NCBI GenBank assembly: GCA_027603065.1
Contig: JADGJP010000046.1
Location: 120,743 to 184,742 of the forward strand
Direction: 5' to 3'
DNA from: Geranomyces variabilis
Taxonomy: Eukaryota > Chytridiomycota > Chytridiomycetes > Spizellomycetales > Powellomycetaceae
Length of the DNA: 64,000 nt
Each line of letters starts with the position of its first letter. The stretch's first letter is position 1. Below the pieces are notes generated by a model that was given only the letters and a program-made list of their open reading frames with translations, made no database searches and had not been told where the DNA came from. Of the stretch, positions 19,447-25,510 are shown piece by piece. The translations under genes and the position numbers were made by a program.

Positions 19447-19626
19447 CACCGACTGCAACTTTGGAAGGAGGAGAGGCCAGGCTACGCAGCACGCCGTGCG
19501 AGCGGGTCGCGGCCGCTCGCAAGGAGAAGCCGCCGCATGGGGCCGAAGCGGTCGCCCACCACGAAGCAGCCGATGGTTGTTGTTTGGGACAGCGTCATAT
19601 TTAGGGTGATTGTTTTTGGTTCGCAG

Positions 19627-20742
19627 CCACGATCAACACAAACGACGTGATCCACAAATATGCCCGCAAGAAGAACACCATTGACGTAGAGGGCTATGTA
19701 AGCCCACCTATAGCAGCATGAGCTACTCGAGCAACCAATTGAATCGTGCGCTCTCCTCTCTCTTTCTCTCACAGCTGGAATATCTGGATGAGATTGAAGC
19801 AGTCTTCAACGAGACGAAGAAACCGGCTTCAGAGGCACAGGCCAAGGACATATGCGCAAAGGTCGCGGCACGACGGCGATTGGGTGGGGGAGAAAATCCC
19901 CATCGATGACCTTTCAACCGAAGAGTTTATACACATCGGAGAACTGGATGCGCACCGTATCGGCATCATTTTGTAAGTAATTAACAGCCATGGACACCTT
20001 TCACTCGCTGGGCCGTCTTACTCATTCAGCCATTCGCCTAGGAAATCGCTGCAAGACTGCCGAGCGTATGACCAGCTCAAACAGGTCATAATCGCCGCAA
20101 ACGTAGCCAGCAGCGCGACAAAGTACGGCATTCTCGATGGCGCCCATCGAGTCGCCACTGTAAAAAAAATATAACGAAACTGAGGCGTACAAAATCAATC
20201 AGGTAATTAGGACGAAAGCATGCCTTCAGAGTTCTCCGGTAGAGAACTCTGAAAATTTCCACTTCTCTGCGGGAGAACTCAAAATTTCCGTTCAGATTCC
20301 CGCAGTGGTGCTCGGAAATGAAATCGACCTATTGCAATGTGCACTGCTGGCAACGGCTTTCAACTCCGCCACCCAAGCTACGTCCAAAGACAAATTTACG
20401 GACCAGATGATCACGCTCGCTCTGCATTCTAGTATTGCGCCGACGCTCACGGTGTTCTCTGTCGTGTTTGGCAATCGCTTCCAATCTGCGGTGACAGCCG
20501 ACCGGGTGTATGGAGACAGCACGCTCGGTGTACGAAATGGTTGCCGAGACACGCGCGCACGCTTCACCTTCCTCGAAATCGTGGACCGAGGACATACCGG
20601 GCCGCACTTCATTCTGGGCCTGGCTTGGACGACACGCACGCACGCGTGGTCTGCATGCCGAGCCGAGTGTGGCGACGAGCAGAACCACCCACCTGGGGCC
20701 CCCATCGGCACCGCTTTATGGCCTCGTTTTCGTTTTTGGTGA
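19627..20742 (+). CDS. ParB/sulfiredoxin-like domain protein, ends unresolved
   Basis: Exon-like blocks in order: 19627..19697 (reads NTNDVIHKYARKKNTIDVEG), 19775 to about 19860 (EYLDEIEAVFNETKKP), about 19865..19972, 20042..20159, then 20203 onward. The junction inside 19840-19880 needs a frame change and is unresolved; it may be a real break. Block three has EKIPIDDLSTEEF. The next exon has KYGILDGAHRVAT. The spacing and sequence fit the ParB/Srx-like fold, where an I-P-L-x-x-L entry and a D-G-x-H-R (or G-x-x-R) motif form the nucleotide site. The last block (IPAVVLGNEIDLLQ and on) is protein-like but unassigned. Eukaryotic ParB-like proteins are uncommon and their roles are unclear. Confidence 0.45.
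20227..20251. repeat. Perfect 10-bp inverted repeat (hairpin)
   Basis: CAGAGTTCTC, a 5-base spacer CGGTA, then GAGAACTCTG. A related half site (GAGAACTCAAAATTTCC) follows at about 20270, repeating the GAGAACTCTGAAAATTTCC next to the hairpin. It falls in the proposed last exon of the ParB-like gene, so it may be only coding sequence. Confidence 0.7.
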
Positions 20743-20819: not shown

Positions 20820-21309
20820 AAGCGCGCGGAGCTGTCGGCACCCCGATGACCCCCGGAACCCTCTTAAGGACGCCAGTTGGCGCACCCTCGAAAACGCGAT
20901 CAATGCTATTGACGATATCAATTGACCTTGCTCTTTAAGAGGCGCACACGACGCGAACGTTTTACTGGGAACCATCCGATTTGCAACTACCACGCGGTGA
21001 GTTTTGCCGCTAGCTCAAATCGCCGGTTATCCATCGAAATCGCAGAGGGTGCGGCCTTGGCGCGTGAGAGCGTCAACGGTTGACATGGACCAGGGTGGTG
21101 ATATCTCCAGCGAAACGGTGCGCGGATGATAAAGTTCTACCCGCTCCAAAATACACTGTTTTCCCTGCCCAAATACACTGTCCTGTACAGTATCGCTTAC
21201 AATGGTGGAAAGTCCACTCCTGTCTCCAGTGCTGCTGCTACTTCAGGAAGAAGGATCTCTCCCTGAAGCATGATAGGGGGGTTGCCAAACCCTCGGGTGG
21301 TTGGGTAAT
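20820..21309. other. Gene-poor stretch with second copy of the 50-bp repeat
   Basis: Contains 20973-21022, the partner of 12675-12724. Just upstream a plus-strand frame reads GAHDANVLLGTIRFATTTR and ends at gtgagt, so this is probably a stray exon. The rest (21023-21309) shows no domain; it is the likely promoter of the endonuclease-kinase gene. Confidence 0.4.
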
Positions 21310-22767
21310 ATGATAGGTCGATGGTACATGGACACTCTACGCCCCGGTGGCTTGCCAGTCCACTTGCGTGTCTTGTTCAACCTTTCCAACCACAAATACT
21401 CGAGTATAAGATTCACAACCATGCAAAGTGTGTACACTCTGATACAGAACTGCCCGCCGTTGCTGCCGCTCAACAAGGATACAGGCTCGCTAAGCTCCAT
21501 AACCACGACCACACCAAAGTACCCGCGCACCGACCTTGACACTCTCGCCACATGGCACACCTTCCCGACAGAAATTGACTCAGTCCGCCATATCCTGCGT
21601 AATTCTATGGTCCCGAGCTCTACAACGCTCGGCCCCTTTGACTTCGGCGCCGACGTCAACGACGAAACGGATGTCCACAGCATTATTCGGCAAGTTATGT
21701 TTGTCTCTCTCAAAAAGTGCTTGTCTAGCCTCGACGTCGTCCAACCAAAATTCACCGTTGCGGCCGGCAACAAGGATGTAGTCGGGCAGCCAGACTCTCT
21801 TTACAAGTCCGGGTCTTCCACAAAACCCAAAATTGTGGTGGAAGTGAAAACAGATTGGGCGTTTCCACAGGTATGTTCAAAATTTTTGATGTTCTGCGGC
21901 GGAGTTGGGTTTTTTCAGCAAGACTGACGCTTTTCCGACCTACCATCGTCCGCCGTTTTAGCTCGGGTGTATTGTAGCAGAATGGCCTGCCGCTCAACGT
22001 AACCCCAAGTCAAAGCTCGCGCGTGTTATTCATCAAGTTTATGGATACATGACCTTCAATCACTTGCGGTATGGGGTCCTCACCAATTACGAGAAAACCT
22101 GGTTTTTACGCCGGGTCGATGTCCCACAAGGAGGGCAGCTCGAAATCAGCGATCCATTCGCGTATTCGTCGACATCGACGCTGTTCCAGGCATGGGTAAC
22201 AATCACACTTCTTGCCGAGAACAACTGGTTCTACAGCTCGCCGACGACCTCACCATGTGCCACCAGTCTTTCCGCACCACCAGCACCAGCACCGACCTCG
22301 GACCCGTACATTTTGCGATCAACCGACTTTTCAGGAATTGAATCACGCAGGGCATCGCTCGCAGCCGAATTGGTGTCGTTGTCCACGGAACGTACTACGG
22401 CACCTCAGTTGCCATGAAGGTTGTCGATGCATCAAAAGAACAATGGGCCAGCGAAGAACTTGACCACGAAGTGTCAGTCTACTCAGCTCTTCGCTCACTG
22501 TCTGGCAGCACAATCCCGCGCGTCATAGCGTATATTGAAGTCCGGGATATGCTGCGAATTCTCGTTTTGGAGGACTGTGGCATCAATCTTCGAGCTTACC
22601 AGAAGCAAGGAGGAAACCTGTCGACCGTCCGGCACTTGTGCAACGTTCGTTTAGCCGAACTTAATGCGTTTGGATACATGCACAATGACGTGAAGGAGGA
22701 GAACTTTATGTTTGACAGTGGATTTGTTCGTCTCATCGATCTGGGTCAAGCTTCGCAAGGTATGTAG
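21310..22767 (+). CDS. PD-(D/E)XK nuclease - protein kinase fusion (Crinkler-RHS-type effector-like)
   Basis: Model: 21310..21870, 21962..22195, 22237..22305, 22351..22767; introns of 91, 41 and 45 bases, phases consistent, 426 residues. The first half ends in a restriction-endonuclease-like core (DVVGQPDSLY, then IVVEVKTDW with the ExK pair). Next is the segment GYMTFNHLRYGVLTN typical of this family. The second half is a compact protein kinase. It has a glycine-loop-like VVVHGTYYGT, the ATP lysine in VAMKVVD, the catalytic loop MHNDVKEENFMF and DLGQAS in place of DFG, so the catalytic residues are kept. This nuclease-plus-kinase order is known from CR effectors and related fungal proteins. 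The start is uncertain. The end is abrupt after the DLG motif; a further exon may begin at 22828, where a TIR element follows. Confidence 0.7.
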
Positions 22768-22862
22768 CGGCAGGACAACCGGCAGCGGTTCATAAATGTT
22801 GGCTAATTTGAAATGCTGCTCGGCAGGGACCGCAAGCGAATCCGTGAACTTCTGACCTCTTA

Positions 22863-22964
22863 CAGCCAGTGGACAAAAGTCGGGGCCCCCCCTCAGAGCC
22901 GCCACCCAGCGCACTCTCTCACAGTCAAAACTTTAGGAGCTCTCCGACTTTTGTCCACCGGCTG
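22863..22964. mobile_element. MITE-like element with 21-bp terminal inverted repeats
   Basis: Left end CAGCCAGTGGACAAAAG.. at 22863-22883 and right end 22944-22964 are inverted copies with one mismatch in 21 bases (sixth base A/G). The whole is 102 bp and has no coding capacity. The left end is preceded by TA, as expected for TA-targeting Tc1/mariner-type transposition; the right side is followed by AT, so the duplication is not perfect. Related solo ends occur at 13685 (three differences) and 62160 (two differences), each also preceded by TA. It lies just after the kinase gene and may have cut its 3' end. Confidence 0.7.
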
Positions 22965-24586: not shown

Positions 24587-25510
24587 ATGTTCTTTGCAAG
24601 GACCGTCGCAAGGGCCGCTCCCGTCGCCCAGGTTTGCCTTAATGCAAGTATCTTTTCAGGCAGCTCAAAGAAACGCTAAAAGCTTTATTTGCGTTTCCCC
24701 TTCCAGCTTGCCCGCTCGTACGCCACGGCACCCGCCGCCCAGGCCGTCAAAGTGCCGCTCTCCTTGCACGGCATCGAGGGCCGCTACGCCACCGCGCTGT
24801 ACTCTGCCGCTGTGAAGAAAAACCAGCTCGAGGTTGTCGAGCGCGACCTCGCTGCCGTTGCCGCCGCGCTGAAGAAGGACGCCGAACTCAAGTTCAACCT
24901 CGAGTCGCCCATGGTCAACAAGCACCAGAAGAAGGCCCTCGTCGCGAAGTCGTTCAAGGGCATCAATGAGACGACCAAAAACTTTTTTGATGTGCTTGCG
25001 GAGAATGGACGGTTGGACCAGACCAGCAAGGTTCTTGCGTCCTTCACCGAGCTGATGGGCGCGCACCGCAAGGAGGTTTCCGTCACCGTTATTTCCGCCA
25101 AGGTGCGATGGGAGAAAGATGGCGCACGCAAAAATGATGGCCATTTGTGCAGGGCGGGCGCTAATTCAAGGAATTACCTGTGTCGTGTTCCGCACATTGT
25201 AGGAGCTCGACTCGTCCACGTCAAAGAAGCTCCAGGCCATCTTGTCGAAAAGCAACCTGATTGAGAAGGACGCTAAGCTCATCGTGAACAACAAGGTAAA
25301 GAGAAAAGAGGGTGACTCTTTGATCTTTTTTTTTACAAGCGTGCCTTTCGCGAGATACCATGTTAACGAAATACCGTTTTTGCTGACTGAACCTAGATTG
25401 ACGCAAGCATCCTCGGTGGTCTCGTCATCGACTTTGGTGACAAGACTATCGACCTGTCTGTTGCCTCGAAGATCAACAAGCTCAACCGCCTCCTTACAGA
25501 GGCCATCTAG
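24587..25510 (+). CDS. ATP5: F1Fo-ATP synthase subunit 5 (OSCP), mitochondrial
   Basis: Model: 24587..24631, 24707..25102, 25203..25295, 25397..25510; all phase 0 introns, 215 residues. OSCP caps the F1 head and joins it to the peripheral stalk in the inner mitochondrial membrane. Exon 1 plus the start of exon 2 form the targeting presequence (MFFARTVARAAPVAQ then LARSYAT). The N-terminal helical domain shows GIEGRYATALYSAA. The C-terminal part shows the family ending GGLVIDFGDKTIDLSVASKI in a slightly split form across exons 3-4. Length is normal. ATP4, its partner in the same stalk, is 21 kb away. Very confident. Confidence 0.95.

Follow-up and report, generated by a model that had tools for sequence, protein, structure and literature searches.

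Nuclease and kinase domains are known to share one chain in Crinkler-RHS-type (CR) proteins such as those of the CRN8 class. According to the available text of PMC5289972, a restriction endonuclease (REase)-superfamily domain is coupled to a protein kinase in about one-sixth of CR C-termini, the kinase being thought to regulate the nuclease, and about one in four REase-containing CR C-termini has a P-loop nucleoside triphosphatase (NTPase). CRN-like genes have also been described in saprobic chytrids, with 11 in Homolaphlyctis and 6 in Spizellomyces, and 25 chytrid CRN-like genes carry kinase domains (available text of PMC5364385). We examined a 64,000-nucleotide stretch of the Geranomyces variabilis genome (contig JADGJP010000046.1, positions 120,743 to 184,742; hereafter the window), in which an initial annotation had placed a nuclease fused to a kinase at 21310..22767 and had likened the arrangement, rightly, to CR proteins. 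The gene is HDU88_006568 (protein P0008) of G. variabilis, a chytrid of the Spizellomycetales. We somewhat favor the view that it belongs to a compact two-domain family with a role in biological conflict, in which a short conserved N-terminus is followed by a predicted metal-dependent PD-(D/E)xK nuclease that a variable linker connects to a minimal kinase. This account is supported by the fold of a relative, the occurrence of both domains in relatives, the retention of key residues by most members, the inheritance of both halves together, the shortness of the kinase, and the variation and decay among copies.

A fungal family with two domains

Three protein searches returned 7, 17, and 21 proteins, 34 of them different. 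Because the searches scored only ~8000 candidates sharing short words with the query, the resulting distribution is a lower bound. Chytrid relatives come from strains of G. variabilis, G. michiganensis, Powellomyces hirtus, Borealophlyctis, Blyttiomyces, and Phlyctochytrium (kinase half), and other fungal relatives from Hydnum rufescens, Arthrobotrys, Orbilia, and Dactylellina. No oomycete or bacterium appeared among the organism-labelled relatives, within the reach of searches limited to proteins that share short words. The two-domain relatives P0009-P0016 (the gene's own record excluded) are 40-90% identical to the query across 85-95% of its length, with P0009, P0010, and P0011 being 90%, 82%, and 74% identical to the window gene. 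Together these proteins form a fungal family that has no Pfam model of its own and a distinctive 'YPRTDL' N-terminus, conserved as TTxPxYPRTDLxxLxxW ahead of the nuclease. The identities of the nuclease and kinase halves co-vary closely (r = 0.96 over 190 pairs of 20 proteins), which is what inheritance of the fusion as one unit would predict. Both this comparison and that of the N-terminus used 20 of the 34 proteins; the 14 omitted are partial, odd, or mis-annotated (P0002, P0005, P0006, P0007, P0010, P0015, P0023, P0024, P0026, P0027, P0029, P0030, P0032, and P0034).

The nuclease half of the window gene carries the D...ExK signature of the PD-(D/E)xK superfamily in exon 1, with PD at 21790-21795 (D at 21793-21795) and EVK at 21841-21849 (E at 21841-21843, K at 21847-21849), followed in exon 2 by an HQ motif at 22031-22036 (Q at 22034-22036). 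Among family proteins with a residue at the respective site, the D is present in 23 of 26, the E in 25 of 26, and the K in 23 of 25. The alpha-beta-beta-beta-alpha-beta core of the superfamily is present as well, and the nuclease half of one relative matches in fold the nuclease domains of type IIG and type I restriction enzymes (BpuSI, DrdV, and HsdR). The window exons gave no match to any Pfam nuclease family, and the nuclease assignment in the window rests on the motifs, the relatives, and the fold of that relative.

As first annotated, the kinase half has an intact VAMK lysine (K at 22417-22419), HND (22681-22689), and DLG (22738-22746). The residues that mark the kinase superfamily, namely Lys, the alphaC Glu, HxD, Asn, and DxG, are present in the window exon and in relatives. 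Pfam Pkinase matches the window kinase exon at 34.8 bits, above the cut-off of 31.7; most scanned relatives score below it (for example P0009 at 26.0, P0012 at 26.2, and P0013 at 30.5).

The kinase is short. The DxG aspartate is found in 30 of the 31 proteins that have a residue at this site, and all 30 end in tails of 7-44 residues; the exception, P0029, has I at this site and 86 residues after it. A complete C-lobe does not follow DxG, and in the DNA of the own-genome copies stop codons come soon after it. A search with a profile of five kinases from the same genome detected no C-lobe in the DNA downstream of six family loci. In two control kinases the profile did pick up parts of the C-lobe, yet it barely recognized the kinase cores of the loci themselves (E of 0.004-1.2 at four loci and nothing at two), so the search is a weak one that a diverged C-lobe could escape. 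Given tails that are both short and shared, the abrupt end is therefore the normal end of the family. The initial annotation had pointed to it as lying beside a miniature inverted-repeat transposable element (MITE). Damage by the element is not supported, since relatives stop equally early and the gene ends at 22855, 7 bases before the MITE, which thus does not truncate it.

Several results weigh against the proposed account. Foldseek alone gave no nuclease match under an E value of 0.001, with the best, to BpuSI, at 0.025. Some members look poor in nuclease residues, namely P0003 (PN and ExR) and P0006 (ExR) in one subfamily and P0004 (QxK) in another, where neither P0001 nor P0004 aligns a D at the PD position. 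In the kinase, only 18 of 32 proteins have G as the last residue of DxG, 10 have E there, and P0009 reads DLD. Finally, the Mantel correlation between the two halves follows from shared descent, and as such it speaks for joint inheritance and not for a joint mechanism.

The window copy and its linker

Two open frames carry the nuclease motifs, at 21277-21927 and 21962-22417 (these and all features below lie on the + strand). Exon 1 (21421..21870) encodes the conserved N-terminal module (MQSVYTLI...TTTPKYPRTDL..L..W) and the first half of the PD-(D/E)xK domain. Its start is probably 21421 and not 21310, because P0009 and P0010 open with MQSVYTL and MQSMYTL, and P0011 has MQSVYTL behind an extension. 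The exon ends in VVEVKTDWAFPQ, directly before the GTATGT donor of intron 1 (21871..21961; 91 nt, GTATGT...TTTTAG), which is spliced out in P0008-P0011. Exon 2 (21962..22305) holds the second half of the nuclease, with a YGYMTFN motif, and the start of the linker. The kinase exon (22365..22759, its frame open from 22342) is followed by the last intron (22760..22826; 67 nt, GTATGT...CGGCAG), for which the tail in common with P0008-P0011 is the evidence, and by a last exon (22827..22855) ending in TASESVNF and a stop codon. With a GTATGT donor at 22760 and an acceptor CAG ending at 22826, the gene ends at 22855 and not at 22767. TASESVNF is the C-terminus of P0008 and P0009 and recurs in P0010 and P0011 with 1-2-residue variants.

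The kinase rows of the window and P0008 are identical. The NCBI model of P0008 has 620 residues, of which the first ~225 have no counterpart in relatives. Part of this extra segment matches window frames at ~19600-20540, and the model HDU88_006568 seems to be a fusion of the nuclease-kinase gene with another gene lying upstream.

The initial annotation had described a single spliced frame with three short introns. Two of these, of 91 and 67 nt, are supported, but the third (22306-22364, 59 nt), which is also a GT-AG intron in the NCBI model, is contradicted by relatives. All eight of P0009-P0016 carry residues across this segment in the alignment, and by eye P0031, P0032, and P0034 do likewise; P0024, poorly aligned in this stretch, was left out of the count. 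The segment is thus probably not an intron. Because relatives code through it and the window reading frame shifts inside it, a break or an assembly error in the linker of the window copy is probable, and owing to this frame change the copy is probably non-functional as a fusion. Doubt about the stretch before the kinase had been voiced at the outset and was well placed. Both domains stand on motifs, relatives, and the fold of a relative, but the single frame that was to join them changes in the linker.

It is an even question whether the window gene is a relic, decaying and without function in its own strain, which would be compatible with any of the readings of the family given below. The frame change falls where P0009-P0016 all read on, and family fragments lie elsewhere in the genome (for example on contig C27 at 233 kb and contig C43 at 55 kb), as expected of a relic; yet the catalytic residues in the window are all intact, each of its three pieces is 89-92% identical to P0009, and the frame change may instead stem from an assembly error. 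Intact copies are present in other strains.

Copies in the genome and an adjoining MITE

The search for paralogues proposed with the initial annotation turned up nine family loci in the genome: the window copy on contig C41, C27 at 114, 233, and 236 kb, C43 at 55 and 66 kb, C30 at 11-12 kb, and C50 at 14 and 72 kb. A tenth piece, a 36-residue N-terminal fragment, lies on C23 at 81 kb. In a kinase tree of 38 rows, the window copy groups with P0008-P0011, the copies at C43:66 kb, C27:236 kb, and C30 group together, and the copy at C50:72 kb groups with P0002, P0003, P0005, and P0006; the kinase rows of C50 and P0002 are identical. The tree leaves out P0027 and P0030, which miss most of the kinase, and the placement of several long-branch rows is unsure.

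The MITE beside the window gene (22863..22964, + strand) is 102 bp long with CAGCCAGTGGAC ends, and has no TA on its right side. Its CAGCCAGTGGACAAAAGT repeat occurs 157 + 160 times in the genome (up to two mismatches) versus 2 + 2 for a reversed control, from which we estimate ~160 copies if each element has two ends. Of 16 copies picked from the listed places for inspection, 14 are flanked by TA on both sides and measure 88-146 bp; these elements have CAGCCAGTGGAC ends and TA target duplications. A MITE lies inside, overlaps, or is within 20 bp of at least four of the nine family loci, against 0.07 expected (Poisson P ~1e-6). This count excludes the C23 fragment and draws on the first 100 listed places, all of them exact matches and reaching as far as contig C43, which makes four of nine a lower bound; the test was made after the pattern had been seen, and fragment ends created by insertion add to the count.

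Three further loci show MITE or linker features. At C27:236 kb (locus L013, 1182-1281), a MITE flanked by TA sits inside the open frame of the paralogue, in the nuclease-kinase linker. At locus L010 (1366-1653), a kinase N-lobe fragment that shares 52% identity with the window and 61% with P0013 lies directly against a MITE. The C30 copy (locus L014, 1222-1500) has repeated WRDRQPHWKAGKLAQ-like linker segments between its nuclease and kinase frames. Beyond the MITE in the window, at ~24590-25500, is a spliced gene that we take from its sequence to resemble the OSCP subunit of ATP synthase; by eye, the larger window frames look like ordinary genes.

Relation to known systems and possible roles

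With a REase-type nuclease coupled to a kinase, the family agrees with the defining arrangement of the nuclease-kinase CR proteins, and it resembles them also in being patchily distributed and duplicating, with broken copies (available text of PMC5289972 and PMC3426532). It differs in its own 'YPRTDL' N-terminus and in a kinase that, in 30 of 31 proteins, extends only 7-44 residues past DxG. The CRN8 kinase is of the RD class, as given in the available text of PMC3426532, whereas the corresponding motif of the family is mostly HGD or HND. In the profile searches that the initial annotation had recommended, Pkinase exceeded its cut-off on the window kinase exon, but, besides the lack of a Pfam nuclease in the window exons, no scanned family protein matched the Pfam Crinkler header (PF20147) or a P-loop NTPase. 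LxLFLA[KR] is absent from 20 family proteins, and a genome search for PF20147 found nothing, although control genomes gave no match either. Because neither a Crinkler header nor an NTPase was matched, we do not file the family as Crinkler; the best reading is that it would work like the nuclease-kinase CR class.

Other systems resemble one half of the protein. FunK1 (PF17667) is likewise fungal and expanded, and its catalytic-motif region scores weakly against the family. The database labels three of the seven proteins of one search as FunK1, but the best PF17667 score is 23.9 (P0003) against a curated cut-off of 24.1, and no scanned family protein reaches it. The available text of the FunK1 paper (PMC3203195), moreover, never uses the term 'nuclease'. 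The nuclease domains of BpuSI, DrdV, and HsdR share the nuclease-half fold and the D...ExK...Q arrangement, whereas the family has a kinase attached and no methyltransferase or helicase match in Pfam scans. Pfam OspG_kinase matches one own-genome locus (L011) weakly, with an E value of 0.07. OspG is a minimal bacterial effector kinase whose fold is cut short after the catalytic core; it differs from the family in being bacterial and having no nuclease, and the two need not be related by descent.

In the proposed mechanism, the nuclease would be the acting part, cutting nucleic acid in a metal-dependent manner. The kinase would bind ATP without most of the substrate-holding C-lobe, and may gate or tune the nuclease through autophosphorylation or a nucleotide-dependent contact. 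In a conflict, the protein would be aimed at an outside organism or would serve internally, for killing or for genome defence. Because no export feature was seen, we lean slightly toward action inside the fungal cell. In a bolder and rather improbable version, the nuclease would replace the lost C-lobe, ATP binding or autophosphorylation would switch cutting, and the protein, not being an exported effector, would work within the fungal cell, where it would target mobile DNA or bring about self-killing.

Two roles may be weighed within this framework. Tentatively, the family may serve as an intracellular factor, a nuclease directed against foreign or mobile DNA or used for self-killing in non-self recognition or genome defence, with the kinase as its sensor or brake. 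The excess of MITEs at family loci would fit such a role, as would the lack of a visible export signal, but the test was post hoc and the pattern is explained by the tolerance of dispensable genes to insertion. In PADLOC, P0016 gave the best of the weak matches to PD-T4-6 kinases (E 5e-7), and P0009 weakly matched PD_DExK (E 0.021); the kinase matches are short and center on the catalytic motifs, as is the case for kinases generally.

We consider it unlikely that the protein is instead a delivered effector, exported to act inside a prey, host, or competitor cell. Geranomyces is a saprotroph and is not known as a parasite, which counts against delivery, as do the absence of LxLFLA[KR] and of any Pfam Crinkler match and the lack, in 20 proteins, of a strongly hydrophobic N-terminus (at best a mean of 1.94 over 11 residues; no signal-peptide program was used). 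A missing signal peptide would be weak evidence, because chytrid CRN-like genes mostly lack one too, only two having it (available text of PMC5364385). The short conserved N-terminus ahead of the nuclease, the presence of the family in nematode-trapping fungi, and the same pairing in about one-sixth of CR C-termini (available text of PMC5289972) would suit an effector, a role proposed for CR proteins. That an ExK-looking frame merely came to lie beside an ordinary kinase fragment, as the lack of a Pfam nuclease family in the window exons might suggest, is refuted for all practical purposes by the match of P0009-P0016, which hold both halves in one chain, by full-length relatives in several fungal groups, and by a relative that matches nucleases in fold.

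Nuclease-kinase proteins are thought to be weapons in biological conflict, and how kinase and nuclease relate in them is unsettled. The pairing itself is known from CR proteins, and the compact fungal family with its own N-terminus is a variant of it. Its members are small versions of ~420 residues, with the kinase reduced to its core, found in chytrids and nematode-trapping fungi, and they make the gating idea directly testable. The occurrence of the family in a saprotrophic fungus loosens the link between nuclease-kinase proteins and parasitism.
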